A stretch of DNA of 64,000 nt, taken from the NCBI RefSeq assembly GCF_029937855.1, contig NZ_JAPYPC010000003.1, positions 124,001 through 188,000 of the forward strand, read 5' to 3'. The DNA comes from Christiangramia sp. (GTDB lineage Bacteria; Bacteroidota; Bacteroidia; Flavobacteriales; Flavobacteriaceae). A program made the position numbers and the translations under genes. Positions 9,822 through 56,651 of the stretch are shown here, in pieces. Positions within the stretch are counted from its first letter, which is position 1. Each line of letters begins with the position of its first letter. The notes beneath the pieces are model-generated. The model saw only the letters and a list, made by a program, of their open reading frames with translations, was not told the origin of the DNA and did not search any database.

Positions 9822-9864
9822 GTTTTAATTTTGTCAGAGGCTTGCAGCTAACTTGATTATAAGA

Positions 9865-10386
9865 TCAATTCTTAGGGGGATATCCTTCCAGTGCTTTTGT
9901 TACAATTTTATCGAATTTCTCCTGTCGTTTTTGAGGGTCAGCATTCATATCAAAAGAACTTTCTACTACGGCCTGCCAAATAAGGGCATCATTTTCAACA
10001 TCTATAAAGTCAAAAGTAAGTTCCAGGTAACTATCCATTTGTCCCAAAGGAATACCTCCGGAAACTCCTACTCCAACATTACCGCCACCGCCACCTATTC
10101 CTACTCCGACTCTGCTTCGGTTATCTTGCTGAAATTTTTTGGTATATACATTTACATAGATTCCCGGTGAAGAAGAATCAGAAAAACCTTTTTCCTGCAT
10201 CTGTCTTTCGATACTTTCCAGCAATCTTGCTTCATCTAACTGGCTAAGTCCTGTTTGAAGATCAGGAAAAATAGTATAAGAATTATATCGATCAAAATTC
10301 ACCTGTTGATCATAATCATAAACTGCTTTGGGAGAATTACACGCGGCAATAAATAACAGTAGAAAAGAATATTTCAATAGTCTCAT
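9865..10386 (-). CDS. DUF4136 domain lipoprotein
   Basis: A 173-residue lipoprotein. The ATG at 10386 is chosen because it begins a clean lipoprotein signal (MRLLKYSFLLLFIAAC) with the lipid-bearing Cys at residue 16; a start nine codons upstream would put a charged stretch before it. The mature part fits DUF4136: VYDYDQQVNFDRYNSYTIFP near the start, a Gly-rich strand (VGVGIGGGGGNVGVGV) and a final LTFDFIDVENDALIWQAVVE. The function of the family is not known. It lies 60 bases downstream of obgE on the same strand. Confidence 0.85.
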   Translation of the reverse strand: MRLLKYSFLLLFIAACNSPKAVYDYDQQVNFDRYNSYTIFPDLQTGLSQLDEARLLESIERQMQEKGFSDSSSPGIYVNVYTKKFQQDNRSRVGVGIGGGGGNVGVGVSGGIPLGQMDSYLELTFDFIDVENDALIWQAVVESSFDMNADPQKRQEKFDKIVTKALEGYPPKN

Positions 10387-42054: not shown

Positions 42055-42139
42055 GCGGGCGTGGTGGAATTGGTAGACACGCTAGACTTAGGATCTAGTG
42101 CAGCAATGTGTGGAGGTTCGAGTCCTCTCGCCCGCACCA
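42055..42139 (+). tRNA. tRNA-Leu (anticodon UAG), target of the mobile element
   Basis: Acceptor arms GCGGGCG and CGCCCGC pair fully; the anticodon stem CTAGA/TCTAG encloses loop CTTAGGA with anticodon TAG, which reads CUN leucine codons. A T arm with GGTTCGAGTCC and an encoded CCA are present, with the long variable arm of a leucine tRNA. The segment from the anticodon loop to the 3' end has a second diverged copy at 56514-56564, marking this gene as the integration site: its 5' half is host sequence and its 3' half was probably supplied by the element. Confidence 0.95.
42086..42101 (+). repeat. Left attachment core (attL) in the tRNA anticodon arm
   Basis: The 16 bases ACTTAGGATCTAGTGC are identical to 56514-56529. 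Similarity to the right copy continues with a few mismatches through the tRNA end and its terminator. Confidence 0.85.
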
Positions 42140-42143
42140 AACG

Positions 42144-42174
42144 AAAAGCCGACTTTAACGAGTCGGCTTTTTTT
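42144..42174 (+). terminator. Terminator of tRNA-Leu
   Basis: An 11-bp stem AAAAGCCGACT / AGTCGGCTTTT with a 6-base loop and a T-run. A near copy lies at 56574 behind the displaced tRNA fragment. Confidence 0.85.
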
Positions 42175-42179
42175 ATGTG

Positions 42180-42198
42180 GGTAACACCGAGGTAACAC
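42180..42198 (+). repeat. Paired GGTAACAC boxes, left end of the element
   Basis: GGTAACAC at 42180-42187 and 42191-42198, separated by three bases, so one helical turn apart. The same pair with the same spacing and orientation occurs at 56390-56408. They are likely arm-type integrase binding sites. Confidence 0.6.
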
Positions 42199-42295
42199 TT
42201 TATGTTAAAGTTTAACAAAAAAGCATATCATCCCGGCATATCTTAAATAACTGAACGATTCAGTATTATATGATGCCAGTTAACTTTTGCTCTAA

Positions 42296-43660
42296 TTACT
42301 GATTTAAGCCATAATTTTTCACGAAGAATTCAACATATTTTGGAAGTTGTGTACCCAGGTAATAAGGTAAATTCATCAATAAATAAGGTGTTCCGTCCAG
42401 GGTTTTATCTTCTTCAATTTTAAAGTTACCCCCATATATTCTTATAGTATAAGGGTGGTTTGCCCTTATTGTAAATTGATGTAATGATTTTAAAGTGCCT
42501 TTTGCTCCGGATTTTATTTCTATAGGAATCACTTTATCTTCATAAGGATATACCAAATCAACTTCAGAAGATGCCTGGTTTTTCTCCCTTACCCAAAAAT
42601 TTGGTTTTGCGTTTGTTATGGTATTCAATGAAATCAACTCCTGAGTAATTAAATGTGGAATTATAGCTCCTTTAAAGGAATTGCTAAGATCTTCCATTCC
42701 CAACATTTGCGCTTGAATTCCAAGGGCGTGATTTATCAATCCCGTATCCAGAAATTGAAGCCTAGGAGACTTTTTTAAATTTGATTTTATGGGATTCTCT
42801 GTATCTGTAGTAGGATAAATAAGCTGAATTATTTTGGCATCATCTAAATTGCGCATAGCTTCCCCAACTTCTCTTGATCTATAGTTGGAATTTCCAAAAT
42901 TCTGAAATTTGATACGTTCATCTACATATAAGTGAGCTACTTCCATGATATGTTTTATTACACGCCTTTCTGTAGCATTCGAAGTGTATTTTTCCACATC
43001 GTTTCTATAAGTACTCCAAATACTTTCATAGACTTTAGGCAGGTCGGCCAAACTTTTGGTTTTTAGATCGGCTTTGACCACTTCTGGCATACCACCTATA
43101 ATAGCATATCTATGAAATAGATCCATCAGAGTAGTATGGGCATAAGGCTTTATTGGAATAGTATTTAGTTGGTCTAACGCTGTTTCGTGTTCTAAAGCTT
43201 TTAAATATTCAGCAAAATTCAACGGGTAGAGATATAAATATTCAATACGGCCTACGGGAAAACTTTTTACATCTTTTATGGCAAACTCAAGCAAAGAACC
43301 AGCTGCAATAACATGCAATTGAGGTTTGTCCTCGTAGAAATATCGTAGTAATTGGATAGCTTTGGGCAACTCCTGAATTTCATCTATAAATAAAAGGGTG
43401 TCGTTTAAATCCCGAACAGATATATTATTGGTCAGGAACAGAGCTTCGACAATTGTTTCAACATCATCATGTTCTTCAAATACCCTTTTATCTGCAGACT
43501 TCTCCAAATTTAAAAAAATAGAATTCTTATATTTTTTTGCAAAGTCCTGGACTAATGTAGTTTTACCTACTTGTCTTGCGCCTCTAATTACCAAGGGCTT
43601 CTTGTCGGAATTTTTCTTCCAATTCTCTAGATGACCGGTTATATGTCTCTGGAAATTCAT
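42296..43660 (-). CDS. AAA ATPase with DUF4143 C-terminal domain
   Basis: A 454-residue ATPase. Walker A GARQVGKTT is at 27-35 and Walker B LLFIDEIQEL at 89-98; the C-terminal DUF4143 region holds NFWVREKNQASSEVDLVY, a nuclease-like EVDLV strand followed by PIEIKSG. Such proteins are common in mobile and accessory DNA of Bacteroidota; their job is not settled, and defence or toxin-like roles have been proposed. Three 33-bp-spaced repeats lie just upstream and probably control it. It is the leftmost gene of the element. Confidence 0.88.
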   Translation of the reverse strand: MNFQRHITGHLENWKKNSDKKPLVIRGARQVGKTTLVQDFAKKYKNSIFLNLEKSADKRVFEEHDDVETIVEALFLTNNISVRDLNDTLLFIDEIQELPKAIQLLRYFYEDKPQLHVIAAGSLLEFAIKDVKSFPVGRIEYLYLYPLNFAEYLKALEHETALDQLNTIPIKPYAHTTLMDLFHRYAIIGGMPEVVKADLKTKSLADLPKVYESIWSTYRNDVEKYTSNATERRVIKHIMEVAHLYVDERIKFQNFGNSNYRSREVGEAMRNLDDAKIIQLIYPTTDTENPIKSNLKKSPRLQFLDTGLINHALGIQAQMLGMEDLSNSFKGAIIPHLITQELISLNTITNAKPNFWVREKNQASSEVDLVYPYEDKVIPIEIKSGAKGTLKSLHQFTIRANHPYTIRIYGGNFKIEEDKTLDGTPYLLMNLPYYLGTQLPKYVEFFVKNYGLNQ

Positions 43661-44352
43661 TTTATTTTGTTATATAATAAGGGTAAATATATAATTATAT
43701 TGTAACAAAATAAGGGTTATTTTAAATTTAATTTGTAATGAAATTAGGGTAATAGAAAAGACAGTGATTCAAATAAATTTTTGAAGAGGTCTAAAGGGGA
43801 AATCGGAAAGTATGCCAAAATTTGAGCAGAATGCAAAAACACTAAAACAATGTTTAAGAACCGTAAGTAATTTTCTTATCCCCGAATTGTTATTTATTCT
43901 TTTCAAGCTTAAATATTTTCGGATGTTTAAAATTGAACCAGTATGAAAACTTGAAGACGATAAGAGCTTTGTGTCAGCCATTTTGGCTATCTCAATTTAC
44001 AGGTTTCTGAATCAAGTTCGGTTTCCATGGTATAATGTTAAAATTTATACTCTTCGAGACATGTTGTTATTGCATTTTTATCTTCTATAACTATAAGGGC
44101 AGCCCATTAGTTAATCCTTCTTCTATACTAAATAAAGAATTGGCTTCAAGGTACCCTCCTATGGTTACCGGTGTCTTGTTTCAGAACCATAATTCAAATA
44201 ATTTAGACATACAAATAACTAGAGTATGTGAGGTATGAAGTCCCTATTCTTTTTTCTTTATTGGAAATAGAAAAGAACAATAAGCGCATTCATTTGAAAA
44301 AAACTTCAATAAAATAAATCAAAATAAACTAAATCTTAAAAAAGTATTATTT
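43661..44352. other. Gene-poor interval with an operator array at its left end
   Basis: A 692-base AT-rich stretch. The first 100 bases hold the three-unit repeat array. Beyond it, two short frames (43769-43981 minus, 44035-44238 plus) show no family resemblance, no ribosome site and biased composition; I do not count them as genes. The rest shows nothing recognisable. Confidence 0.5.
43665..43753 (-). repeat. Three direct repeats of 33-bp period upstream of the AAA gene
   Basis: Units of about 23 bases with consensus TTTGTAAnAAAATAAGGGTwAT; the GGG triplets lie at 43681, 43714 and 43747, exactly 33 bases apart, about three helical turns. The first unit begins 5 bases upstream of the ATPase start codon, so the array covers its promoter. 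It looks like a cooperative operator. Confidence 0.7.
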
Positions 44353-44448
44353 CTATTTCAAATTTTCTTTAGCCAATTTTCCTTTGTCTCTAGTAGGATA
44401 AAAAGAAAATTCTATTCCATCTTCCATTACCTTAGCAATGGTTCTCAT
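44353..44448 (-). CDS. Possible 31-residue protein coupled to the DoxX gene
   Basis: The frame starts at ATG 44448, overlaps the last 17 bases of the DoxX gene in another frame and reads MRTIAKVMEDGIEFSFYPTR and then DKGKLAKENLK. Composition is protein-like and charged, and the overlap would allow translational coupling. No family is recognised. It may also be chance. Confidence 0.3.
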   Translation of the reverse strand: MRTIAKVMEDGIEFSFYPTRDKGKLAKENLK

Positions 44449-44905
44449 TTTCCTTTTTTTCCTTCAATGCGGAAGTACTAATTACCAGCATTGAGCTAAC
44501 AATTATTATATTTTTTAGAATGTACTGGCCAACCAGGGTGAATGTTAACTCTGGAAAAAGCAGCAAAGGAGTAAAAGTTCCAGCTATATGCAATAGTACT
44601 AATGCAATGGTAAGCGGTCTAAGGATATTAAGGAGCAGAAGAAAACCTATAGCGGTCTCCCACAACGCCAACAGAATCATGGACAGCTCTGGAGAGAGTA
44701 GCCCAAATGTTAATGTATGAACGGTTGTAGTAGCCAAATCTTCGGCAGGACTTAGATTAGGGAAAAATTTTAGTATTCCAAATAAGCAATATATGAGACC
44801 AATACTTATGCGCAATAGGAACGTTCCCTGAAGTCCAATCCAGCATTCGATCTTTTCTCTCATATTTTGTAACGGTATTGTGATTGGCTCCTTATTATAT
44901 TTCAT
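44432..44905 (-). CDS. DoxX-like membrane protein
   Basis: A 157-residue protein with four hydrophobic helices, matching the DoxX/DoxD family: LLRISIGLIYCLFGILKFFP, then LLALWETAIGFLLLLNIL and ALVLLHIAGTFTPLLLFP. Family members are membrane subunits linked to redox or sulfur chemistry in a few cases, but most are uncharacterised. It lies between the AAA ATPase and the TonB receptor inside the mobile element, 144 bases after the receptor gene on the same strand. Confidence 0.8.
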   Translation of the reverse strand: MKYNKEPITIPLQNMREKIECWIGLQGTFLLRISIGLIYCLFGILKFFPNLSPAEDLATTTVHTLTFGLLSPELSMILLALWETAIGFLLLLNILRPLTIALVLLHIAGTFTPLLLFPELTFTLVGQYILKNIIIVSSMLVISTSALKEKKENENHC

Positions 44906-45049
44906 TTGAATGTGCTTTTAAGCAGTCTGATTTATACCTCTCATCCTAAGTAGTTTTCTCTTAATCAAGAAACATTTCTAAAGAAGGAGGCTTGGTTTGG
45001 GATATCCCAATCAATTTTTATTTATTATTTCAACAGGTTATAGAAGTAT

Positions 45050-47692
45050 TTATATTTTGATATCCACTCCGAAAATAATTTGCCTAAAACCACCTCCGAA
45101 AATACCAGATGTTGCACGGTTTAAACGGGAAGCCCGATAAATTTCATCGGTAATATTTTTGCCATTGATGAAAGCCAACATTTTGAGTTTTTCACCTATA
45201 CTAAAGTTATAATTCACAAAGGCATCTATAGAATGATAGGCAGGCAGTTTCCCGATTGCCCCATCTGCTGATTCGTTGTCGAAATTATGAAATTCGGTAT
45301 ATTGTTCACTTACAAAATGTCCACTAATGCCAGCAGATAAATTTTTATAATTATAATTCAATCCAACACTGGTATTCCATCCTGGCGTGTAGGGTGCTTC
45401 AACGTCAGACAAACCATCATCTCCAAAATTTATAACACTTTTAGTGATATTTTGAAAATCAGATTGGTCAATAGTTTCATCGGTTAAAAGCACTTCTCCA
45501 CTCGGGCCGTCAGCAACATAAACTTCAAATGCATCCCGGTTGGAATTTACTTTTTCTATGTATTCGTTTTGAGTAGCTCTGCTATGTATGACTTGTGAAA
45601 AAAGATCTTTGTCCACCAATCGGCCGTCTAAGACCTCAGACTTCATAATATTAATATTTCCAAAAAGTCGGAGCTTATGTTGATTTTTATTTAAAAGTTC
45701 AGCACCCAGGGCCACTTCCAGTCCCTGTACATTGATTCGTCCCAAATCCTCAAATACTTCATTTCGTCCTCCTGCATAGAAATTTCGACTCGTATTATTG
45801 AAGTAAGTAAGTTGACCGTCAATGCGATTGTTCCATAAATTTCCTCTCCAACCTATCTCCCGATTCCAGGCCAATTCTGGTTCTATATTAATACTTTGTC
45901 TTGCCAGTGGATTGGTAACTATACCATTTTGCTCGACCAAAAAGCCAAATACCTTAGACGGGGCAATCATTCCCTGATAAATACTTCCATAAAATTCTCC
46001 GTTTTTTATGCTATAATCTGCTGTAAGACCCGGCAGGAACTGAGTATAAATATTAGGCTCTTTACCTTCTTCTGTACTGCTGAGACTTGGGTTTTGAGCC
46101 ACGGCAAACAGATCCTGCCGATACATATTTACATGCTCCACTCGTAGAATAGGGGTGAAACCCCATCTTCCTATGTTAAATTCATTTCTGATAAAACCAT
46201 TGGCTGACCAGAGGCGATACCATAAATCTTTTGTGGTTCTGCCACTTCTTGCCCATCGGCTGTTATCGGCCACCAAAAAACGGTCTTTAAATATCTCACG
46301 GTGTAAATTGATACTTGCTTCTAAATGTTGCCCTTCTCCAAAAACTTCCCAATCATAATTCATGGTTTCTTTAAAACCTGAAACCGTATAAGTCCAGCGG
46401 CTATCTGTGGTGCTTTCCCTACCGTTTAATATCCTGCCTACAATGAGATAATCTTCCTCGTTAAAAGTTTTTCCTTTTAAATAAGCGTAACGATCGTTAA
46501 AAATTTGTTCCCCCACGTAATCCCTTACTTGCTCAGCTTTAACCTTTGTAGTAATCTGTCGCCACCAATCCCGCTCAAAATCGGAAGCATATATTTTTGA
46601 GGTAAAACTCAAATTACTTTTAGGTAGCCATTTATGGATAATGTCCAACCCATAACGTCTCATGGTAAATTGGTCGGCATCCAATGGGTTTTCTGTTGGA
46701 TCTGTTTCGAAAGTAAATGGTGTTTGTGAACTCAAAGATGCCTGATTATCTTCATATTGTCCACTTACTTTAAAATATAGCGATTGTTTATCCGAAAGTT
46801 TTGAGAATATTTTGGCATTTAAATTCAGTATTTCAACGGAAGAATTATCAGTAAACCCACCAAATTTTTTGTAAACGCCTTCCACCAAAGCTCCAAGGTT
46901 GTTCCATGTACCTCCATAGGAGAGAAGTCCGGTTTGATAGTTTCGCTGACCACCTACCAATTTTACCCTGAGTTTAGGTTTTTGTGGTGGCAATGCGGTG
47001 ATGTAATTTACGGCACCATACATATTATTCGGTCCAAAACGCAACATATCGGCACCTTTGTAAACTTCAATAGCAGTTAACCGGTCACTTACGGGATTAT
47101 AATATGCGCCCGGTGCGATATAAGGTGCGGGTGCTGAAGGGGTGCCATCTTCCATTAATAGTACTTTTTTTGAACGTCTTCCCCAAGAGCCTCTAATACT
47201 AATATTCGGGCGGTTGGACAATCCCATATCTCCCACAATGTTCACCCCGGGCACAATCTTAAGTATTTCTTCAGTACTGATGGGATTCATATTTTTCAGG
47301 GTTATAGGATTAATCCTGAAATTACTCCCTTTAAATGTTGTTTTAAAATTAGTGGGCGATGCACTTACGAGAACCTCATCCAGGCTGGTACTGGATCGCG
47401 TCATTTCAATTACGCCTAAATTAAAGGTGTTAGGATTGACTTTAATAGTCCTTGCGTTATAGCCTAAATATTTAATAAGGAGTACATCCTCACTTTTCGG
47501 TTTCTGCAATTCAAAATATCCCTGCTTGCCTGTGACGGTACTTGCACTATTTGACTGGAATTGAACTATTGCTCCTGCCAACGGTTGATTATCTGTTTTA
47601 TCAACCACTTTACCTGAAATTAAGTTTTGTGAATAAACGGAATATAAATTTGCAAAAAAAATGATCAATAAGGATAGGACTGTTTTGGTCAT
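45050..47692 (-). CDS. FecA-like TonB-dependent receptor
   Basis: An 880-residue outer-membrane receptor. After a signal peptide (LLIIFFANLYSVYSQ) comes a carboxypeptidase-like domain (ISGKVVDKTDNQPLAGAIV, about 25-110), a plug (EEILKIVPGVNIVGDMG, ISIRGSWGRRSKKVLLMEDG, EVYKGADMLRFGPNNMYGA) and a 22-strand barrel ending in an aromatic-alternating strand FGGGFRQIIFGVDIKI. It resembles ferric dicitrate/siderophore receptors, but the substrate is not proven. It is cargo of the element. The remains of an IS lie 112 bases upstream of its start and may have changed its expression. Confidence 0.92.
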   Translation of the reverse strand: MTKTVLSLLIIFFANLYSVYSQNLISGKVVDKTDNQPLAGAIVQFQSNSASTVTGKQGYFELQKPKSEDVLLIKYLGYNARTIKVNPNTFNLGVIEMTRSSTSLDEVLVSASPTNFKTTFKGSNFRINPITLKNMNPISTEEILKIVPGVNIVGDMGLSNRPNISIRGSWGRRSKKVLLMEDGTPSAPAPYIAPGAYYNPVSDRLTAIEVYKGADMLRFGPNNMYGAVNYITALPPQKPKLRVKLVGGQRNYQTGLLSYGGTWNNLGALVEGVYKKFGGFTDNSSVEILNLNAKIFSKLSDKQSLYFKVSGQYEDNQASLSSQTPFTFETDPTENPLDADQFTMRRYGLDIIHKWLPKSNLSFTSKIYASDFERDWWRQITTKVKAEQVRDYVGEQIFNDRYAYLKGKTFNEEDYLIVGRILNGRESTTDSRWTYTVSGFKETMNYDWEVFGEGQHLEASINLHREIFKDRFLVADNSRWARSGRTTKDLWYRLWSANGFIRNEFNIGRWGFTPILRVEHVNMYRQDLFAVAQNPSLSSTEEGKEPNIYTQFLPGLTADYSIKNGEFYGSIYQGMIAPSKVFGFLVEQNGIVTNPLARQSINIEPELAWNREIGWRGNLWNNRIDGQLTYFNNTSRNFYAGGRNEVFEDLGRINVQGLEVALGAELLNKNQHKLRLFGNINIMKSEVLDGRLVDKDLFSQVIHSRATQNEYIEKVNSNRDAFEVYVADGPSGEVLLTDETIDQSDFQNITKSVINFGDDGLSDVEAPYTPGWNTSVGLNYNYKNLSAGISGHFVSEQYTEFHNFDNESADGAIGKLPAYHSIDAFVNYNFSIGEKLKMLAFINGKNITDEIYRASRLNRATSGIFGGGFRQIIFGVDIKI

Positions 47693-47804
47693 TTTGAAAT
47701 AATTTGTTTTTTGCTGATTGTCGGCAAATGATTAAAAAAATAATATTTAATTTACGCTTTGTCCATTAGAATATCTGATCTTGCTGTTTTGACGAAAATA
47801 TATA

Positions 47805-47827
47805 GGGAGTGTAATTTAAACTCTGTC
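47805..47827 (+). repeat. Left terminal inverted repeat of the IS256-family element
   Basis: Reads GGGAGTGTAATTTAAACTCT then GTC; the shared blocks TGTAATT and TCTGTC match the reverse complement of the other end. Confidence 0.65.
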
Positions 47828-47834
47828 CTCTGCT

Positions 47835-49067
47835 TCACTCCTTGGGTACCCCCGAAGGAGTGGTCGCTAAATCGAGCTTGATCCGGTCTTCAAATCTAAT
47901 GTATAATTGCTGGATTGTCAAGCTCCAATTTTGAAGTGGGCTCGTCCATTTCTTTTGGATATTTTTGGTGGCCAGATAGACCAGTTTCAATAGTGCCATA
48001 GCGTTGGTGAAAGCCCCTTTGGTCTTGGTCATTTTGCGCACCTGCCGGTGGAAGCCTTCCACGGCATTGGTGGTATAAATAAGTTACGGATGGGCTGGGT
48101 GTATTTAAAGTACTGTGAGAGGTGTTCCCAGTTGTTTTGCCAGCTTTCGATAACCATCGGGTATTTCTTCCAGGTCCAACAGTTGATCCTCTGCCACCTC
48201 TTTGCTGGTGGCACGATAGACCAGTTTTAGATTTGCCATAAACTCCTTTTGGTCTTTGGAGGCCACGTATTTCATTAAGTTCCTTATTTGGTGGATAATA
48301 CAAAGTTGTACCTCCGTCTTTGGAAAAATACTTAGTATGGCCTCGGTAAAGCCCTTGAGGTTATCGGTACAGACAATCAATATGTCATCCAATCCGCGGT
48401 TTTGCAGGTCGGTAAGTACCTGAAGCCAAAAATTGGCGCCTTCGCTCTCGGAAATATACATCCCAAGCACCTCCTTATACCCGTCTTTGTTGATGCCCAA
48501 CACATTGTAAAGGGCTTTATGTTTTATCTTTCCATCAACCTTGACCTTGTAGTGCATGGCATCCAACCATACGATGCAGTAGAGGGGATCCAAAGGACGG
48601 TTTTGCCAGGCTTTTACATCAGGGATGATCCGGTCGGTGATCTCGGTAAGCACATTGTGGGAGATCTCGGTATCGTACATTTCTTTTATATGACTACAAA
48701 TATCCCGGTAGCTCATACCAAGCCCATAAAGTCCAATAATCTTATCGGAGAGGTTATCGGCAAGAATGGACTGGCGTTTTTTGACCAATTCGGGTTCAAA
48801 GCTGCTCTGCCTATCTTGTGGGGTTTCGATTTCAAAACTCCCCATGCCGCTTTTGATGGTCTTTTTGTCTTTTCCATTACGCTTGTTGCCTTTGTTTCGC
48901 TCATCGCTATCCAAATGGCCTTCCATTTCTGCTTCAAGGGCTTTTTCTATGAAACTTTGAAGCATAGGTGCAAAGGCACCATCCTTTCCAAAAAAGCTCT
49001 TGCCTTTACTGAATTGTTCCAAGGCTTTTTTACCAATCTTGTTTAATTCTTCTTGTGTCATTTTCAA
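47835..49067 (-). pseudogene. IS256-family transposase with two frameshifts
   Basis: The three frames together give a normal-length transposase of about 410 residues. Frame one (start 49067) covers the N-terminus and catalytic Asp residues in WLDAMHYKVKVDGK and VCTDNLKGFTEAI. It leaves register near 48170, where the expected KYPMVIESWQNNWEHLSQYF lies in another frame. A second slip of one base near 48085 moves to the third frame, IYTTNAVEGFHRQVRKMTKT, which carries the catalytic Glu and runs to the end at 47835. The protein cannot be made, so the copy is immobile unless complemented. Confidence 0.88.
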
Positions 49068-49097
49068 TCTGTTTAAGTATTAGTATAAAAATTCTCA

Positions 49098-49121
49098 GAC
49101 AGACTTCGAATTACACCCTCC
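49098..49121 (-). repeat. Right terminal inverted repeat of the IS256-family element
   Basis: On the minus strand reads GGAGGGTGTAATTCGAAGTC then TGTC, matching the left end at 18 of 24 positions. Confidence 0.65.
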
Positions 49122-49243
49122 TTATAGTTTTTTATTTTATTGTGAATTATACCATTTAAATAGATTTTTTTTCTTGCCCCATATCTGCCATAACCTTGCG
49201 CATGGTTCCTGTGCTGTTTTTATAGCGTACGGGAAGTTAAGCG

Positions 49244-49284
49244 TTCCTGCCTACCGCCCCGAATAAGGGAGGGGCAGGCAGGAA
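49244..49284. repeat. Long intergenic hairpin
   Basis: TTCCTGCCT pairs with AGGCAGGAA, with an inner CCC/GGG-rich part. It lies in the 287-base gap between the IS and the PepSY-like gene and is typical of short dispersed repeats. Confidence 0.45.
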
Positions 49285-49408
49285 ATAAAAATGGCATAGG
49301 GCGCATTTAATGAGTTTTTTAACTTTAAGATAATCCTGTAATTATGCATTGCAACAGCAATGAATGGAAAAAGAGGCTGTCCACCTGTTAAAAAACCGTG
49401 CAGCATTA

Positions 49409-50146
49409 TTAGTCATTTTCGTCCTCATCATCGTCTTCGCCGTTGTTATCTTCGGCATTCAGGAAATTACCGTCTGCGTCAAATTCCAGTTCCACCCCAT
49501 TATTCAGGGTTACCTCATAGGAACCATCGGATTCAACTTCAGCTTCAATAATAGTATTATCAGGATAATTCTCACCTATATAATCCAATATCATCTGTGG
49601 TAAATTCGCAGGATTAATGTCTTCATCCTCTCCCTGGTCATCATCATTCTCATCCTGCGCCTGTCCCAGAAAATTGCCGTCCCCATCAAAGATAAGTTCA
49701 ACATCATTTTCTAATTCGACTTCATAATTTCCATTGTTTTCCAATTCGGCTTCTTCAATGGCCACCCCGGGATAGTTTTGAGCAATGAAATCCAGTATAT
49801 TTTGAGGTAATTCTGAAACCTCTACTTCCTCATCGCCAAAATCGTCCTCCTCGTCTGTATCCTCTCCAAGAAAATTACCCTCCGAATCAAAAACCAGTTC
49901 GGTATCATCGCTCAGCGTGATCTCATAATTTTGATTGTCTTCTATTTCAGCTTCTATAATGGTCAATCCCGGATAATTATCTGTGATATAATCCAAAATG
50001 TTTTGTGGTAAGGTGGAGGTGCTAATACTTGCGTCTGCTGAAAAAGCAACAGCATTTAAGTCTGCTTCAAGGGATTCTTCATTATCAGTGCATGACTGTA
50101 ATACCAGCAATAAGAAAGTACTTAGAAAAATTTTATACGTTTTCAT
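49409..50146 (-). CDS. Three-repeat PepSY-like (DUF2874) lipoprotein
   Basis: A 245-residue lipoprotein (LLLVLQSC, Cys19). Three copies of a 48-residue PepSY-like module start at residues 46, 113 and 182: LPQNILDYITDNYPGLTIIE, then ELVFDSEGNFLGE. They are joined by strongly acidic linkers (DTDEEDDFGDEEVEV; DENDDDQGEDEDIN), and the tail is acidic too. PepSY-like domains occur in periplasmic proteins that may bind ligands or inhibit enzymes; nothing more specific can be said. It is cargo of the element; the linkers may bind calcium. Confidence 0.8.
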   Translation of the reverse strand: MKTYKIFLSTFLLLVLQSCTDNEESLEADLNAVAFSADASISTSTLPQNILDYITDNYPGLTIIEAEIEDNQNYEITLSDDTELVFDSEGNFLGEDTDEEDDFGDEEVEVSELPQNILDFIAQNYPGVAIEEAELENNGNYEVELENDVELIFDGDGNFLGQAQDENDDDQGEDEDINPANLPQMILDYIGENYPDNTIIEAEVESDGSYEVTLNNGVELEFDADGNFLNAEDNNGEDDDEDEND

Positions 50147-50512
50147 ATTTAATAGTTTAGTTCGTTTTTGACGGATATAAATCCAATTCCATCGATAATA
50201 ACGTCTGTGAATTCTTCAAATTGTATGAATTCGGCTTCAAAATATAAAAAGGCTTGATTTAAAAATCTCTTTTTTAATCAATTTTAACAAATTAGGTGTT
50301 GATAGTGAACTCATTAGCTGTTCGAGTCTAAGTTTTCACCACTCTCGTAGTCCCTTTATCGGTGCACGGTAAGTTAAAGTAAAAACAGCATAAGACGCAT
50401 ACCACTTATGCGACAAAATTTACTGTAAAAAATTGCCTTTTTATAAGGCTTACCGGAACTTTTACTGTAAAAATTAGGATAATTTGCGACAAGGAAATTG
50501 TCATGACAAATG
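50147..50512. other. Gene-free stretch with paired motifs
   Basis: No coding potential. TTTACTGTAAAAA occurs twice (50419-50431 and 50461-50473), GCATAAG/CTTATGC form an inverted repeat (50388-50411), GCGACAA occurs twice, and the 12-base palindrome TTGTCATGACAA sits at the right end, next to the stop of the small membrane protein gene. The purpose is unknown; together they resemble a regulatory or transfer-related site. Confidence 0.5.
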
Positions 50513-50959
50513 CTACTTATTTTCTTCCAGCCACTGGTAATATCCATTCTTGATTTCAGGATTTTCTAAAAGATAATTTTCAAATAGTTCACTTTCGGAA
50601 TTCATCATTTGATACATTTCAAATTTTTCTTCGGCTGCTTTTGTGGCAGAAGATTTAAAATATCCTAATAAGCCTAACATTAGTATTCCGAAGATACCGA
50701 ATAGAAGAAGCATATAATTAGGCATCAACCGGGCATTTTTCAGTTTCTGATCAATATTTTTGAGTATGTCATCTTTCAACTGATCATTTTTTTCCTGCTT
50801 TTCCAGAAAAGCGTTCAGGTTTTTGTCCAATGCTTCAGTGCTGATGGGTATACTCATTTTCTCGATTTCTCTGGAAAGCTCCTGTAGCTTTAGAATGGCC
50901 AGTTTAAAATCGGTCATTTCATCAGTCATCAATTCCATGATCTCATCTAGTTTTTTCAT
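50513..50959 (-). CDS. Small coiled-coil membrane protein of the mobilization operon
   Basis: A 148-residue protein that I cannot assign to a characterised family. Residues 1-75 are charged and helical, with coiled-coil character (LKLQELSREIEKM, LDKNLNAFLEKQEKNDQLKD). One membrane helix follows at about 80-101 (YMLLLFGIFGILMLGLLGYF) and then an acidic C-terminal helix. Its start lies 18 bases after the relaxase stop on the same strand, so it belongs to the mobilization operon. It may help dock the relaxosome to the membrane, but that is a guess. Confidence 0.75.
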   Translation of the reverse strand: MKKLDEIMELMTDEMTDFKLAILKLQELSREIEKMSIPISTEALDKNLNAFLEKQEKNDQLKDDILKNIDQKLKNARLMPNYMLLLFGIFGILMLGLLGYFKSSATKAAEEKFEMYQMMNSESELFENYLLENPEIKNGYYQWLEENK

Positions 50960-50977
50960 ATCTTATAAGGTTTAATA

Positions 50978-51844
50978 TCATATTCCAATTCCAGTATCCA
51001 GCGCCCTTTTTATCACCTGTTTCACCAGATCCTTTGCTATTTTAGCAGCCATATTGGAGCTGATTTGTACGGTCTTATCCAACAGCTTTAAGCTCTGAGG
51101 GATTTCCTTCAGCCTGGAATAACTTGTATTCTGACTGATTTCTCCTATGAGCCGGCCACCCGTCATCTGCCGATGTACCTCGCTTCCTTTTAGATTGGCG
51201 CCTTGAAATTCAAATCGAAAGCCCTGCAGTTGATTGGATTTATTCATACTCGGAATGACCTTTACATTACGGGCTTTCATGTTCTTGATGTATTCATCAA
51301 GCGATTTAGGCCGCTTCTCCAGCACTTTGTTATTGATATGTCTAATGGCCAATCGCTGCCATTTTAATTCCTGCAGCTTTTGCTGTTGTATTTCTTTTAC
51401 CCGGGTAAGACCTAACTGTTTGGCAACATTGTCTGCTGCGATCTGACTTCGCTTGCCGATAAAACTATCTTTGTAGGTTTCTCCATTTAAGCTAATTCGA
51501 TTTGCATAGATATGGATATGGGTATGTTCCTTGTCTTTATGTACAAAACCAATAGCCTGATGATTCTGAAGGTTCATCTCCTTTATAAATCCCTGGGCAA
51601 TCTTTTCCAAATCCTGGTGGCTTAATTCCTTTCCGTCTTTGATGGTAGGACTCACTATAAAACTCAGGGTGTTTTTAGTACAGTGGTCATTTTGAGATTG
51701 AATGATCTTAAACTCATCGGTTATCTGCTCTGGCGTATCACCGGCCAGATGTTGTTTGAGAACTACTTCGGCTTCTTTTTCCTGGTTCCATCCATAGTCG
51801 ATGGCAGCCTTGGTACTTGCTATAGACTGTCCTTTACCAATCAT
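50978..51844 (-). CDS. Relaxase / mobilization nuclease
   Basis: A 288-residue relaxase. The metal-binding three-His motif is at 107-113 (HTHIHIY, in DKEHTHIHIYANRISLNG). The catalytic tyrosine is expected near the N-terminus; Tyr17 (AAIDYGWNQEKEA) is a candidate. These features match the MobA/VirD2-like relaxase family that nicks at oriT. Its start codon overlaps the mobC stop (ATGA type), showing coupled translation. The C-terminal part (about 150-288) is basic and helical. Confidence 0.9.
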   Translation of the reverse strand: MIGKGQSIASTKAAIDYGWNQEKEAEVVLKQHLAGDTPEQITDEFKIIQSQNDHCTKNTLSFIVSPTIKDGKELSHQDLEKIAQGFIKEMNLQNHQAIGFVHKDKEHTHIHIYANRISLNGETYKDSFIGKRSQIAADNVAKQLGLTRVKEIQQQKLQELKWQRLAIRHINNKVLEKRPKSLDEYIKNMKARNVKVIPSMNKSNQLQGFRFEFQGANLKGSEVHRQMTGGRLIGEISQNTSYSRLKEIPQSLKLLDKTVQISSNMAAKIAKDLVKQVIKRALDTGIGI

Positions 51845-52137
51845 TTTTTAAAGTTTTGAAGGTGTGTTCTAATTTCTTCGGCTAGATCTTCAACATTTTT
51901 AGCCAGCCGGGGATCACTTTTTTTAAACATATTACTGATTCGCATAAAGTTGTTTTTATACTGGATCAGTAGCTGATAACATTCCAGTTGTTCCGGAGTT
52001 AATCGTTCCACGATATTGAGTTTGAAAGCGGTAGCCCGGAGATATTCTGAAAGGGAAATTCCAGCCCGGGCCGCTCTTTTTTTGAGTAGCTTTTTCTCGT
52101 AGATCGAGCAACGTATCTGGATGTATTCCCGTTTCAT
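51841..52137 (-). CDS. mobC: MobC-like relaxosome accessory protein
   Basis: A 98-residue ribbon-helix-helix type protein. I choose ATG 52137, which gives MKREYIQIRCSIYEKKLLKK, then RAARAGISLSEYLRATAF, the typical MobC fold. A longer frame from 52200 would add 21 residues (CHCHDNLALRPEVAKKK) encoded by the palindromic DNA discussed as oriT, and is unlikely. The gene overlaps the relaxase start by 4 bases. MobC proteins bind oriT and help the relaxase open it. Confidence 0.85.
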   Translation of the reverse strand: MKREYIQIRCSIYEKKLLKKRAARAGISLSEYLRATAFKLNIVERLTPEQLECYQLLIQYKNNFMRISNMFKKSDPRLAKNVEDLAEEIRTHLQNFKK

Positions 52138-52152
52138 TTTTAATATTTTTTT

Positions 52153-52210
52153 CTTTGCAACCTCCGGGCGCAAAGCAAGATTGTCATGACAATGACACAT
52201 CTTGCTTTGC
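52153..52210 (-). other. Candidate oriT upstream of mobC
   Basis: Two adjoining hairpins lie in the 76-base gap between the TOPRIM gene and mobC. The first has CTTTGC/GCAAAG arms (52153-52175). The second is a perfect 12-bp inverted repeat GCAAAGCAAGAT / ATCTTGCTTTGC (52170-52181, 52199-52210) whose 17-base loop region carries the palindrome TTGTCATGACAA. Position before mobC and relaxase, and this shape, are what an oriT looks like. The nick site cannot be read from sequence alone. Confidence 0.55.
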
Positions 52211-52213
52211 TAC

Positions 52214-53095
52214 TCAAAACGATTTGTGGCTACTATAAATCCACTGCCCAGAAGCTTGTTTTTCATTGAGATCTTTATAGTTTTTATAGCGATGACTTTG
52301 GTCTTTTAAGTTGGGATAGTACTGTAATAATTCCTCTGCGTTTTTCTTCCCGGCCTGATCATTATCCAGGTAGAGATCAACTGATATATAATTGTTAAAA
52401 TAGCGGGTAATCTGTTGTAAAAAAGAAAGCGAGTTTAAAACGATGATATCCGAACCATTTAATTCCTGAGGATACATTTCAGCGATGGATAATAGATCAA
52501 ACATCCCTTCACAAACTACTAGGTTATCCTTTTCCTTCTTCAGATAGGTATAGGTTTTAGGAGCACTGGAAGTTTTAAAATAGAGACTGCGCAGTTCCCA
52601 ACCACCATCCTTATTTTGAAGTCCAATGGCATAGTAAGAATTCCCTTTACACTCATACCATACTTCTTTGCAGTAATTCCTGGCTACTTGTAAAGTAATA
52701 CCTCGAGATCGCAGGTACTTCTTTAAATAACTCCTAGTGATCGGTTGGACCTTTATGTTGGTGTTACCGCTATCATTCGTAGAAGTATCTTCTATGGGTC
52801 CCTGGCATGAAAATACTGGCAATTCATCAGACAGGAATTGAAGGGCTTGGGCAACACTACAAATAAATACTTTGCATATCAGGTCGATAACATTTCCACC
52901 TTCGCCTATTCCGAAGTCATACCATCGGTTCTTTTTTAAAGATACTTTGAAAGAGGCCTGTGTTTCTGACCGTAGGGGGCTCAGAAACCAGGCTTCTTTC
53001 TCCGTTTCCCTACTGGGGAAGTGCCCCAATTTTGCGAGTGTTTCTACGATGCAAATATTGCGGGCTCTTTCACAGTTTAGTTTTTGAAGTTTCAT
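52214..53095 (-). CDS. CHC2/TOPRIM primase-like protein
   Basis: A 293-residue protein. The N-terminal part keeps the CHC2-type pattern WFLSPLRSETQASFKVSLKK and NRWYDFGIGEGGNVIDLI, though the zinc-binding Cys/His set is degenerate. The C-terminal half is a TOPRIM domain with NLVVCEGMFDLLS (Glu) and LYLDNDQAGKK (DxD). Such proteins prime replication of plasmids and integrative elements of Bacteroidota. It lies leftward of the primase-helicase, across the repeat-rich spacer. Confidence 0.87.
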   Translation of the reverse strand: MKLQKLNCERARNICIVETLAKLGHFPSRETEKEAWFLSPLRSETQASFKVSLKKNRWYDFGIGEGGNVIDLICKVFICSVAQALQFLSDELPVFSCQGPIEDTSTNDSGNTNIKVQPITRSYLKKYLRSRGITLQVARNYCKEVWYECKGNSYYAIGLQNKDGGWELRSLYFKTSSAPKTYTYLKKEKDNLVVCEGMFDLLSIAEMYPQELNGSDIIVLNSLSFLQQITRYFNNYISVDLYLDNDQAGKKNAEELLQYYPNLKDQSHRYKNYKDLNEKQASGQWIYSSHKSF

Positions 53096-53330
53096 TTTTT
53101 TTATAATTTTAGCTACCTACTTACCTTTTCCTGTCATAGCAAGGCTTTTCAAATAAAAATGCTAGTTACCTTTAGTTACCTGTCTTACCTAAGCTTCGAG
53201 ATTTAGGTAACTTAGGTAAGATGAACCAAGTTTTACTTACCTGGTCTTAAGCCTTGTCATAAAAGGGATGACCTTATTTAGGTAAGTAGGTAAGTAACTT
53301 TTATTTTTTTTAAATTATTTCTTTCCTGTT

Positions 53331-53377
53331 TTACCTAAACAAAGCCCTCACCCATGGACGGGGTTTTGTTTAGGTAA
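53331..53377. repeat. 17-bp hairpin in the iteron field
   Basis: TTACCTAAACAAA pairs perfectly with TTTGTTTAGGTAA, extended by G-T, CCC/GGG pairs to about 17 bp, with an 11-base loop (CACCCATGGAC). Confidence 0.75.
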
Positions 53378-53471
53378 GCTGATGAAAGACGGTCCTATTT
53401 TTTATTTCAATAGCATTTTTATTCTAGCCAATTAGCTTCATTTAGTATCTCATCAGTATTCTCTTAATTTC

Positions 53472-53689
53472 TGTCATCATTTTTATTTTGATGACACTTT
53501 GATGACAAAATGATGACAGTATTAAGCCTTACTATTACTAGTCTCATCTTACTCTGTCATCAATTCATCAAAAAAAAGAGAAAACCAACGACCCTACCTC
53601 CAGAAAATCAGTTTGAAAATGATGAAACGATGACAGCGCATGGGAACCCCAGTAAAATCTGGTGATTCCCCGTCATCATTTTGTCATCA
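53472..53689. repeat. Eight TGATGACA iterons on both strands
   Basis: Exact copies at 53472-53479 (-), 53489-53496, 53500-53507, 53511-53518, 53555-53562 (-) and 53682-53689 (-); one-mismatch copies at 53628-53635 and 53671-53678 (-). Confidence 0.7.
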
Positions 53690-53719
53690 ATTCATCATTT
53701 TTGTTTGAGCCAGCAGTAC

Positions 53720-54928
53720 TTAGTCTGCCTTTGCATCCTCAAACTGCTCCTGCAAAAACATTTTTGTTATAGTGAAATAGCGTCCTTTGGCTTCCTTCCA
53801 AAGAATATCCCCATCAGCGTACATTACAAATCTCAAATAGCGATTCGAGTTGGGTTGATTGGTAAGGTTCCAGTCCTTTTTAAAGATTTTCCGAATCTGG
53901 GTCAAATCAGTTCGAATCCGGGATTTGCCCAATCCATTCAATGCATCCACTGGACATAACTTTAGCTCATTAGAATCATCCGATTCCATAATAGCTAAGA
54001 GTAAACTGGCCAGCTCCTTCTCTACCCTATTTCTATTATTATGAACCAGTTTACGCAATGCTTTTGTTTCTATTTGCTCAGCGGTAAACCACATGCGTGT
54101 TTTTTTGCTGCTTTGCATTTCCCGATTTTTTAGGAAATGAAGAAATGCAGGGATTTCCTGGTTGAGAGATTCCAGTAATTCCGTTTTCTCTTTTTGTGCC
54201 TTTGGTACTTTCAGCACCCAGAACCGAGTTTCATGCTGATCGATCTTAATGAAGTTTTCTTCATTATTACTGCAGAGAATAAACTTGCCAAAGAATTCTG
54301 CTTCTCGTTTATCCTTTCCCTTAGCTTCGAGCTTATTATAATTAGTGGTACTAAGAAATTTTATTCGTTCGGTCAGTTCTTCCTTATTAAATAAGACTTC
54401 ATCAACGCAGATCAGTAGTTTGTTTGTCCAGTCTGAATTGAACTGACTACTGAAATCATCATTAAGCAGATAAGTAAGATTTCCCTGGAAGATATTCTTG
54501 AGCCATTTTAGAAACGTACTCTTTCCAGTGGAGCGTTCCTGGGAGACCAAACAAAGGATGGGTAGAATTTGAGTGGGCTTGGTATAAAGTAACTGCAGGT
54601 AATCCAATCCTAATTCCCGGTGTTCACCAAATATATGCGCTACAAAAGCTAAAGATCGTTTGATACTTCCTTCTTCCGGCGTATGGCTCAAAGGAGCATA
54701 GGTATTATAAAAATTATGGAAGGTCGATTGAAAATTAATATGGTCGGGAATACAGGTGAATCCATCATATTTTGGAATCTGCGCCAGAAAGGTTTTTCCG
54801 TGATCCTGGCGGATCGTTTCGATATTCCAGGGAATCAAACTTTGATTAGTGTGCCCGGAAATAGACGGAATTTGTACCAGTTTATAATATTGAGTGCCTA
54901 CCCGTATATATTCAATTTCAATATTCAT
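53720..54928 (-). CDS. Primase-helicase family protein (DUF5906-like)
   Basis: A 402-residue ATPase. The Walker A SQERSTGKST lies at 129-138, Walker B LLICVDEVLF follows, then a motif-C like KFILCSNNEEN, the order of superfamily 3 helicases. The C-terminal part shows QTRF-like HETRFWVLKVP and a wing domain. It would unwind origin DNA for the element's replication. It is upstream of the TOPRIM protein gene, separated by the iteron field. Confidence 0.85.
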   Translation of the reverse strand: MNIEIEYIRVGTQYYKLVQIPSISGHTNQSLIPWNIETIRQDHGKTFLAQIPKYDGFTCIPDHINFQSTFHNFYNTYAPLSHTPEEGSIKRSLAFVAHIFGEHRELGLDYLQLLYTKPTQILPILCLVSQERSTGKSTFLKWLKNIFQGNLTYLLNDDFSSQFNSDWTNKLLICVDEVLFNKEELTERIKFLSTTNYNKLEAKGKDKREAEFFGKFILCSNNEENFIKIDQHETRFWVLKVPKAQKEKTELLESLNQEIPAFLHFLKNREMQSSKKTRMWFTAEQIETKALRKLVHNNRNRVEKELASLLLAIMESDDSNELKLCPVDALNGLGKSRIRTDLTQIRKIFKKDWNLTNQPNSNRYLRFVMYADGDILWKEAKGRYFTITKMFLQEQFEDAKAD

Positions 54929-55134
54929 CTAAATTTGGATGCAAATCAGCTAAAACATTTACTGACAAAACATCAATTAAATATACTGAAAATCGATTAT
55001 AATTACATATTATTCAGTGATAATTTATTTTAACTAAGAATAGTGCAATTTAAAACTCTGAAATTTATTTTAAGTGCTTTTAAGATAGCAAATGGTGTTA
55101 AATGATTGTTTTTGTATTTTCTATTAAAACAGAT

Positions 55135-56352
55135 TCAGAAATTAATAACTGAATCTAGGGCTTCATCTGAACTTTTGTGAATGAAATTTGCTTGATAACC
55201 CATGGTTGTGCTTAAACTACTATGCCTATATAATTTCTGTAACATTTGTGGAGAAACTTTGTCTCCAGCAATATTTCCGAAACTATGCCTGGCGATATGA
55301 TTCGTAATTTTCTTATTTATCTTCGCAAGCCTTGCAATTTCAGATAGATTATTATTAAAGCGTTTTATAGCGCTTTTTATAGCACCGTATTTTGCCGGAA
55401 CTTCCTTAGCACCTACTTTCTTCAATTCTGGAAAAATGAAATCAGAATAGGAATTTTGGTCTTTTCTATAGAACTCTAAAATGGTGAGAACTTTATTAGG
55501 TAATTTTAGGGAATCAATTTTATTATTTTTACTCATTTTATAGAAAAGTCGGTCTTCTACTATATCATTCCATTTCATATTCAATACATCGGTAATCCTT
55601 ATCCCCGCGAGATAAAAAGAAAAAAGAAATACATTCCGGGTATGCCAAATAATACTATTTTCTTCTAGGGAAAGCTCTTCGATTTTAAGTATTTCTTCCT
55701 CATTGAGGCCTATTTTTATCGATTGAGGATATTTAATGAGTATTTTACCTCTTCCAAAAGGATAAAGGTTTTGCTCGATAACTCCCCTGCTTATGGCCCT
55801 ATTAAATAGAAGTCTGATAAATACATAGTAATTCATCACAGATCGCTCAGAAATATTCTTTTGAATTTTCAGAAATGTTTTGAGGCGTTTAAGCATTAAT
55901 TCATCTATCTCTTGAAAACTTAATTCTCTTCCTTTTGTGAATTCGAGAATTCTTCTCACTTTACCCCTATCTGAAATTGCCCTGTTGTATTTATTTGCTT
56001 TGAATAAATCGTCCACATGCTCGTTGGCTAATTCAAAAAATGAATTATTCTTTCTTTTATCTCTTACTGAATCCAAAATTTGTTTGGCAGTCAATTTCTT
56101 TCCATTAGATCCTGCTTCAAAAATAATATCATCAATTTGATCGAATTTTTTCCTAATTAATCTGTTTAGTTGGGCGTATTTAGGATGAGATTTTTTCACT
56201 CTTTCTCCTTCCTCACTCCAGTCGGTTGGATCTATATTATATCCGAGATATAAATAGCTTCTTCTTCTGTATGCTGTAACTCGAAAAGCCAACCTATATA
56301 TATTTTCTCCATTAGTCTTTTTTGGATGTAAAACTACCTTTAATTTTGCCAT
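55135..56352 (-). CDS. int: Tyrosine recombinase (integrase) of the element
   Basis: A 405-residue integrase. ATG 56352 is preferred over a GTG 45 bases upstream because it gives the usual start MAKLKVVLHPKKTNGENIYR of the Arm-DNA-binding domain. A SAM-like core-binding domain spans about 100-200. The catalytic domain has Arg in AGIRITDVL, the HIARHSFG box with His and Arg, and HSSLSTTMGYQ near the end with the Tyr nucleophile. It is next to the right junction, and the paired GGTAACAC boxes lie directly upstream of the start, so they may also control int expression. Confidence 0.92.
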   Translation of the reverse strand: MAKLKVVLHPKKTNGENIYRLAFRVTAYRRRSYLYLGYNIDPTDWSEEGERVKKSHPKYAQLNRLIRKKFDQIDDIIFEAGSNGKKLTAKQILDSVRDKRKNNSFFELANEHVDDLFKANKYNRAISDRGKVRRILEFTKGRELSFQEIDELMLKRLKTFLKIQKNISERSVMNYYVFIRLLFNRAISRGVIEQNLYPFGRGKILIKYPQSIKIGLNEEEILKIEELSLEENSIIWHTRNVFLFSFYLAGIRITDVLNMKWNDIVEDRLFYKMSKNNKIDSLKLPNKVLTILEFYRKDQNSYSDFIFPELKKVGAKEVPAKYGAIKSAIKRFNNNLSEIARLAKINKKITNHIARHSFGNIAGDKVSPQMLQKLYRHSSLSTTMGYQANFIHKSSDEALDSVINF

Positions 56353-56389
56353 AATTTTCTCGTTTACTTTTACTAAGATAAGAAATCTG

Positions 56390-56408
56390 GGTAACACATA
56401 GGTAACAC
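56390..56408 (+). repeat. Paired GGTAACAC boxes, right end of the element
   Basis: GGTAACAC at 56390-56397 and 56401-56408, separated by three bases, in the same orientation and spacing as at 42180-42198. The first box overlaps the upstream leader of the integrase gene. Confidence 0.6.
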
Positions 56409-56513
56409 TTTTAATGGTCTTGCTTGATTACAAATGAATACAAACAAAATGTATTTATTTGATTTATAGTTATTTACATATGTTTGAACTCATTTGATAT
56501 CTTCTTTGAGCAA

Positions 56514-56529
56514 ACTTAGGATCTAGTGC
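56514..56529 (+). repeat. Right attachment core (attR)
   Basis: ACTTAGGATCTAGTGC, identical to 42086-42101. It marks the right boundary of the element. Confidence 0.85.
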
Positions 56530-56564
56530 CGCGAGGTGTGAAGGTTCGAGTCCTTTCGCCCGCA
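56514..56564 (+). pseudogene. Displaced 3' half of tRNA-Leu
   Basis: The sequence runs from the anticodon loop through the variable and T arms (AAGGTTCGAGTCCTTT) to the acceptor CGCCCGCA, but there is no 5' half and no encoded CCA. It differs from the intact copy by compensated changes in the variable arm (GCC/GGT instead of GCA/TGT) and in the T arm, so it was once functional. It is most simply the original host end displaced by integration. Confidence 0.85.
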
Positions 56565-56573
56565 CAGCAAGAG

Positions 56574-56603
56574 AAAAGCCGACTTTAACGAGTCGGTTTT
56601 TTT
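56574..56603. terminator. Bidirectional terminator behind the tRNA fragment
   Basis: AAAAGCCGACT / AGTCGG with T-runs on both sides; a near copy of the terminator of the intact tRNA. From the other strand it may end the molybdenum operon. Confidence 0.75.
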
Positions 56604-56651
56604 ATTTAAATCTGAAAAATTACATCGTAACTAATAGTTCTACATATAATC

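Follow-up and report, generated by a model that had tools for sequence, protein, structure and literature searches.

A conserved two-hairpin block, the probable transfer origin of an MbpAB-type mobilizable element of Flavobacteriaceae, and its copies on islands without a detected MbpB gene

Introduction

Among the closest known systems are NBU1 and MTnPi4, integrative mobilizable elements (IMEs) of the Bacteroidetes that encode a tyrosine integrase, insert at the 3' end of tRNA-Leu and have no channel of their own; NBU1 carries its own MOBP relaxase (PMC5704250). Various Bacteroidetes elements can be mobilized by IncP plasmids in E. coli (PMC5704250). In the passages of that review cited here, the known Bacteroidetes IMEs are counted among those with their own relaxase, relaxase-less islands are described from Firmicutes and Proteobacteria, and comprehensive searches for relaxase-less IMEs are said, as of 2017, never to have been performed (PMC5704250). 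In the staphylococcal pWBG749 family, replicons that lack a relaxase have between one and three oriT mimics, which often differ in subtype, according to the section cited (PMC8136818). The nic consensus of MOBP relaxases is given as YATCCTG|Y in the part of the source used (PMC3772185).

Here we analysed a 64,000-nucleotide stretch of Christiangramia sp. DNA (the window), in which a preliminary description had proposed a candidate oriT. Judged from sequence comparison, the probability that this block is the oriT of an MbpAB-type IME inserted in tRNA-Leu is about 90%. Loci, genomes and contigs are designated below by L, G and C numbers.

Results

The host element

An integrative mobilizable element of ~14.5 kb sits in tRNA-Leu of the window (42086-56605; Table 1). 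Its length follows from a 91-92-nt repeat that joins the 3' part of tRNA-Leu and the integrase side and, like a canonical IME, it has an integrase with att repeats and a relaxase of its own. A mobC gene and a relaxase gene had been named downstream of the block: the relaxase was confirmed, while the supposed MobC is an MbpA-type protein, passing the MbpA equivalog model NF041418 (109.2 bits, cut-off 90). The relaxase matches PF03432 (96.3 bits) and misses the cut-off of the MbpB equivalog model NF041420 (99 bits, cut-off 400), and is therefore a relative of MbpB rather than a strict MbpB. Its residues Y17, H109 and H111 are invariant in 15 aligned relatives; solved structures gave 0 matches to the relaxase profile. 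No TraG gene (TIGR03783) was found on the contig of the window (C59), and the four TraG genes of the same genome are on C8, C49, C55 and C78.

The cargo (42296-50146) includes an AAA_14/DUF4143 ATPase, a small membrane protein (44432-44905) that is DoxX-like by look alone, a TonB-dependent-receptor-like protein below model cut-offs, and a PepSY-like protein. A relative of the PepSY gene was also found on a putative relaxase-less island of the same genome (C38). The IS256-family transposase of the element (47896-49067) consists of two overlapping ORFs in different frames and is apparently frameshifted. Between the primase-like and the DUF5906/VapE-like genes, 624 nt (53096-53719) contain many short direct and inverted repeats, of the types TTACCTAA/TTAGGTAA and TGATGACA/TGTCATCA; it is possibly the origin from which the excised element replicates.

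Table 1. Positions of the element's features in the window
Feature	Position	Strand	Evidence and remarks
att repeat	42086..42176	+	Spans the 3' part of tRNA-Leu (42055-42139) plus downstream DNA
DUF6730 protein in mbpC position	50513..50959	-	PF20503 77.8 bits; mbpC comparison by position only
mbpB-type MOBP relaxase	50978..51844	-	PF03432 96.3 bits; NF041420 (MbpB) 99 bits
mbpA, NikA-like accessory protein	51841..52137	-	PF21983 61.8 bits; NF041418 109.2 bits, cut-off 90
Candidate oriT block (H1 + H2)	52153..52210	-	36/36 MbpB loci; 58/58-nt identical copy in G266
H2	52153..52175	-	(C)TTTGC (52175-52170) x GCAAA(G) (52158-52153) around KCCCGNNGGTY; pair counts
Guessed nic (K|CCCG)	52168..52169	-	Weak; analogy with known nic sites only
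H1	52175..52205	-	GCAAGAT (52205-52199) x ATCTTGC (52181-52175); pair counts and fold
Primase-like protein	52214..53095	-	Toprim, CHC2 zinc finger
DUF5906/VapE-like protein	53720..54928	-	PF19263 71.2 bits
Tyrosine integrase	55135..56397	-	PF00589 59.3 bits
att repeat, integrase end	56514..56605	+	93-column alignment, few mismatches

Repeats and folding of the block

The 76-nt gap to which the candidate had been assigned was found as described, at 52138-52213, between the end of the primase-like ORF (52214) and the ATG of the MbpA/NikA-like gene (52137); the mbpA frame of the window is additionally open from an ATG at 52200, within the repeat. Both repeats that had been reported were recovered: a perfect inverted repeat of GCAAAGCAAGAT (52170-52181) and ATCTTGCTTTGC (52199-52210), complementary at 12/12 positions across a 17-nt spacer, and a second pair, CTTTGC (52153-52158) with GCAAAG (52170-52175). 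Because the second pair uses one arm of the 12-bp repeat, both cannot fully form simultaneously, and the outward pairing of CTTTGC and its pairing with the GCAAAG of H2 are mutually exclusive. The sequence TTGTCATGACAA occupies 52181-52192 and overlaps the left repeat arm by one base. Read on the mob (minus) strand from 52210 down to 52153, the block is GCAAAGCAAGATGTGTCATTGTCATGACAATCTTGCTTTGCGCCCGGAGGTTGCAAAG.

When the 76-nt gap was shuffled 20,000 times, a perfect 12-bp inverted repeat arose 0 times. With arms of 12 and a spacing of ≤40, the whole window gave 6 matches (4 distinct places), whereas 20 windows simulated with a first-order model had a mean of 0.2; two of the 4 places are in the repeat-rich stretch at 53.3-53.5 kb. 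Folding of 52148-52216 as DNA gave -17.9 kcal/mol (z -5.8) for the minus and -18.0 (z -6.4) for the plus strand; 0 of 200 shuffles reached these values on either strand. No match to the 66-nt gap was found by blastn against plasmids and phages. The YATCCTG|Y motif of RP4/VirD2-type MOBP oriTs was considered as the nic and rejected, being missing from both the block of the window and the consensus of the alignment; a nic at K|CCCG would be a weak guess, by analogy.

Conservation at MbpB loci

The block was compared at 36 MbpB loci, namely 33 relaxase relatives in named genomes and 3 copies in the window's own genome, including that of the window. Relaxase identity across this set goes down to 49%. 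Loss of the block from loci that keep the mob genes had been named beforehand as the outcome that would speak against an oriT; the block was present upstream of mbpA at 36 of the 36 loci, which supports the proposal made from its position and shape. It was detected by motif at 35 loci and, at L011, by the covariance model (56.9 bits), 1.3 kb upstream of mbpA. As is expected of an oriT, an inverted repeat near the relaxase gene is kept together with that gene.

The conserved unit of ~58 nt is made up of H1, with the common form C-R-AGAT ... ATCT-Y-G and a variable inner stem, and H2, with the common form NTTGC-KCCCGNNGGTY-GCAAN. Among the 25 distinct blocks (from 35), 27 alignment columns are invariant. 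The left arm's outer GCAAAG, like the exact TTGTCATGACAA, is clade-specific, and in the clade of the window H1 is lengthened to the full 12-bp repeat (52170-52210); of the five outer pairs of this repeat, two do not pair in the majority of rows (16 and 17 of 25). Columns 10/42 hold A-T in 17 rows, G-C in 7 and G-T in 1, and two H2 pairs are altered on both sides. In this alignment 93.3% of the cells are paired, compared with 91.1% in shuffles (0/500 as high) and 40.4-52.5% when the pairing is slid; the count of pair types was not above that of shuffles (479 of 500). Pairing fails in 10 of the 25 blocks at H2 columns 49/63, in 6 at H1 columns 13/39 and in 5 at 14/38. These paired changes are compatible with a cruciform, a single-strand hairpin or a dyad bound by a protein dimer. 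At L086 (G133:C2), a single mbpA is preceded by two copies of the block (9833-9893 and 10191-10251) at a distance of 358 bp from each other; a primase fragment lies between or around these copies, and the arrangement resembles a local duplication.

The coding context of the block was examined at 35 loci. At most loci of the window's clade, no primase or mbpA frame crosses the entire block, and at L008 the mbpA frame is open 38 nt past it. At eight Maribacter/Flagellimonas/Cellulophaga-type loci (L009, L010, L012-L017) the primase frame crosses the block and ends ~11 nt later, whereas at 11 Gelidibacter/Mariniflexile-type loci (L021, L022, L024-L030, L032, L033) the block lies within an extension of the mbpA frame, so that the frame through the block differs between these two groups. 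Being kept in three coding contexts, the block is under selection as DNA.

The suggestion that the motifs may be new holds only in part, as MbpAB-type plasmids from Myroides to Bacteroides have the same design. Six plasmids with relaxase relatives of 27-38% identity were taken, and in five of them the design was found before an MbpA-like gene, with model scores of 38.5 bits (Myroides), 37.8 (Empedobacter falsenii), 36.3 (Capnocytophaga), 31.8 (Empedobacter stercoris) and 24.8 (the mbpABC plasmid of Bacteroides faecis, E 0.011). The sixth, from Candidatus Cardinium, gave no match to the block model. Since the plasmids share the design, the block belongs, as one of several branches, to a broader family of MbpAB-type oriTs. 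In a sample of 296 genomes of the phylum, 6 had a match, in two families of one class.

Copies without an adjoining MbpB gene

The family search covered 397 genomes, 56 of which had a match at E ≤0.001. The main tallies exclude block rows below 50 bits (7 of 102 places) and MbpB rows below 170 bits; as only a small number of initial candidates were scored in each genome, some copies may have escaped detection. Of the 95 strong copies (≥50 bits), 73 are followed by MbpB on the same strand. In all 77 paired copies taken together, the distance from block to MbpB is 297-395 nt in 75, and 667 and 1200 nt in the other two. Conversely, 76 of the 82 MbpB places that score 170 bits or more have the block. 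The six places without it are two contig starts, the second piece of a split gene, a weak match in G089 (E 0.0011), and G030 and G252, which have strong MbpB genes with no block found and are real misses.

The remaining 22 strong copies, from 15 genomes, have no adjoining MbpB (orphan copies); they are not all unrelated, as G000 and G266 are congeneric and an island with two blocks was counted twice. Over 24 orphan loci (387,756 bases; 3 with weaker copies), the MbpB and MobB profiles matched nothing except a distant MbpB-like ORF in L120, ~12.5 kb from the block, and both positive controls were matched. MbpB occurs elsewhere in 10 of the 15 orphan genomes and in 43 of the 382 others (Fisher p 1.4e-6, uncorrected for phylogeny). 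In the orphan copies 91.9% of the cells are paired, against 87.8% in shuffles (0/500), and the covariation score is 0.120 against 0.045 (0/500); the first H2 pair is T-A in 15, A-T in 5 and G-C in 1. Pairs changed on both sides (matched by 53/500 shuffles) and pair types (260/500) were not significant in this set.

Islands that carry the orphan copies

A clear integrase was present in the fetched stretch for 16 of the 22 orphan copies, with fragments or weak matches for 3 more; none was found in the stretches of L117 and L083. The integrase lies immediately upstream of the block on the same strand in L082, L110, L121, L126 and L127, or 0.5-1.9 kb downstream and facing back in L088, L115, L118 and L119. 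In L111, L124 and L125 it is 5.8-7.6 kb downstream, and the block is preceded by an XRE-opABC operon. In the 14 orphan loci scanned, it is next to tRNA-Pro(TGG) in seven, tRNA-Pro(GGG) in L088 and tRNA-Lys in L119. The last 13-16 nt of tRNA-Pro are repeated at the far side in 5 of the 10 loci tested (L088, L111, L121, L125, L127), and in L110 the far-side repeat matches the tRNA of L082; the tRNA-Pro islands so bounded measure 5.8 to 16.2 kb. These islands have the integrase with att ends expected of relaxase-less IMEs (mobile genomic islands, MGIs), and no relaxase was found among the part of the orphan-island proteins that was scanned (20 with Pfam and 10 with PADLOC). Their cargo includes Eco57I-type restriction-modification, a Tmn-type defence protein, a chromate transporter, superoxide dismutase, sigma factors and a desaturase, among others. 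Just beyond the tRNA-Pro island of L088, three tandem, near-identical ORFs of 79 aa were observed (5593-6437).

Some loci look like relics: L113 has vapE, primase and a fragment of mbpA, L120 has remnants of vapE and primase, and in L083 the stems are broken. The decayed block of L083 (9844-9905; C70 of the window's own genome) directly follows a histidine-kinase-like ORF close to the end of the contig; the end sequence of tRNA-Pro is found there in reverse.

Two copies are identical to the block of the window, one on C38 of the same genome (57/57 nt) and one in G266, of the same genus (58/58 nt, over window 52152-52209). Except for the PepSY gene of C38, the flanks of both gave no match to the window at the limits used. 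At the end of contig C39 are an integrase and a block of another subtype. The final 55 nt of C39 recur as the first 55 of C38, the contig of the window-type block, and we take the two contigs to be neighbours. On a single contig of G266 the order is integrase, first subtype, sulfate permease and second subtype, and together these arrangements indicate one island with two blocks of different subtype.

A recurrent operon with a divergent XRE regulator followed by opA, opB and opC was seen at L111, L112, L114, L122, L124, L125 and L129-L148. One opA member has a HEPN match (PF05168, 26.5 bits); opB and opC have no Pfam match. The gap from the end of the last opABC gene to the block is 39-122 nt in L112, L114, L124 and L125; in L111 gene and block touch, and in L122, where the copy is weak, the gap is 748 nt. 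The operon was considered as a substitute relaxosome, and this idea was rejected: 18 of 20 further opA loci (of 31 places) are without a block at E ≤0.01, and in L142 and L148 opA lies in a canonical IME, beyond mbpC. For these reasons the operon was treated as cargo.

A second hairpin linked to MobB

Common to the orphan islands is another hairpin, GTAACATCGC-nnn-GCGTGTTAC followed by CCTCTTGCT, which is absent from the window and the 36 MbpB loci. It was searched for in the 56 genomes chosen for carrying the block, of which 40 contain the exact 14-mer GTTACCCTCTTGCT, at 107 sites in total; the reversed control occurs 0 times. A divergent MobB-family relaxase gene (NF041495) lies 536-781 nt from 46 of the 107 sites; seen from the relaxase, the exact 14-mer is near 46 of 77 MobB places and not near the other 31. 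Six MobB-linked loci were scanned, and three of them encode a BfmA/BtgA-type protein, MobB and a MobC-like coupling protein. Of all second sites, 39 are ≤60 kb from TraG, 31 of these downstream of it. By these associations, the second hairpin is a good candidate for the oriT of MobB conjugative elements. It lies within 1 kb of 8 of the 22 orphan blocks. The 61 second sites without such a MobB could mark many more islands that borrow the relaxase of a conjugative element.

As a marker of helper elements, CTnDOT TraJ (PF07863) was uninformative, with 0/56 genomes and 0/14 controls matched. It was replaced by TraG (TIGR03783), for which the 14 controls were likewise silent. TraG is present in 40 of the 54 genomes with a strong block; for the 28 of 95 copies that share a contig with a TraG gene, the distance between them is never below 56.9 kb.

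Discussion

The reading of the block as the oriT of the tRNA-Leu element is based on its place before mbpA, its two stems with paired changes and its conservation independent of reading frame, and on the finding that strong copies occur only beside MbpB genes or on islands without a detected MbpB. If it is correct, the integrase would excise the IME at tRNA-Leu, MbpA would bind the paired sites of the block, and MbpB would nick the mob strand at H1 or immediately 3' of it. As the IME shows no channel of its own, the nicked strand would then enter that of a co-resident conjugative element.

RHH-type mobilization proteins often control their own operon, and a palindromic block directly upstream of mbpA could accordingly be only the operator or promoter of the mbp operon, autoregulated by MbpA. 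We consider this very unlikely, given that 22 of the 95 strong copies have no MbpB downstream and their stems still pair, and that the block is kept within the primase ORF at 8 loci and within the mbpA extension at 11; a double role as oriT and operator is possible. Still less credible, to the point of being negligible, is a transcription terminator or other RNA hairpin. The hairpin is strong and intergenic, as a terminator would be, but no T-run follows the block on the mob strand, the loop and flank bases are as conserved as the stems, and at 19 of the 35 loci tested the block is inside open reading frames.

The copies without MbpB admit a different alternative, namely that they are unused scars of decayed IMEs. 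The remnants in L113 and L120, the broken stems of L083 and the PepSY gene on C38, akin to that of the window's IME, all fit decay, and we regard scars as possible, if somewhat doubtful, as the explanation of these copies. Other copies, however, are in islands with integrase, cargo and tRNA-Pro repeats, the orphan stems are retained with paired changes, the two copies identical to that of the window (57 and 58 nt) have dissimilar flanks apart from PepSY, and MbpB is found elsewhere in the genome far more often where orphan copies occur (10/15 vs 43/382). Most likely, a resident IME would supply the MbpAB that recognizes, in trans, the copies on islands without mbpB. We accordingly read the orphan loci as putative relaxase-less islands with a copy of the IME oriT and, in some cases, also an ICE-type oriT; islands with no matching transfer gene may hitch a ride.

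These readings together suggest a layered transfer piracy in Flavobacteriaceae, a picture for and against which we see about even chances. The IMEs (MbpAB) would use conjugative elements (MobB, TraG), and relaxase-less tRNA-Pro islands would copy the oriT of the IME and, in part, a second, ICE-type oriT, allowing pick-up by two relaxases. They would be, as far as open papers go, the first such islands in Bacteroidota: in the openly licensed literature, nothing was found on the window-type oriT, the MobB-linked hairpin or relaxase-less islands of this phylum. The block provides a searchable oriT signature for mobile elements of Bacteroidota that form a large and little-studied group, and the search with it suggests that some genomic islands without a relaxase, with cargo that includes defence and restriction-modification proteins, may yet be transferable.

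Among known systems, NBU1 and MTnPi4 resemble the IME of the window in integrase type, tRNA-Leu site and lack of a channel and, for NBU1, in having its own MOBP relaxase; the comparison with these elements covers gene content and site. The pLV22a-type mbpABC region, as read on the B. faecis plasmid NZ_CP103275.1, has MbpA/MbpB-type genes and a block of the same design before mbpA, as in the window; in contrast, the plasmid is not integrated, its relaxase is 27% identical and the core of its H2 is CTCGCTTTGCTC. Like the orphan islands, proteobacterial MGIs such as MGIVflInd1 have an integrase, cargo and no relaxase, and an oriT related to that of the helper, according to the passages cited (PMC5704250). 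There, the copied oriT is that of the conjugative helper, whereas in the orphan islands it would come from a merely mobilizable element, and an ICE-type site is also within 1 kb in 8 of the 22. The members of the pWBG749 family, as presented in the section cited, are plasmids with subtypes of one family (PMC8136818), while the islands described here are chromosomal, with sites tied to two relaxase families.
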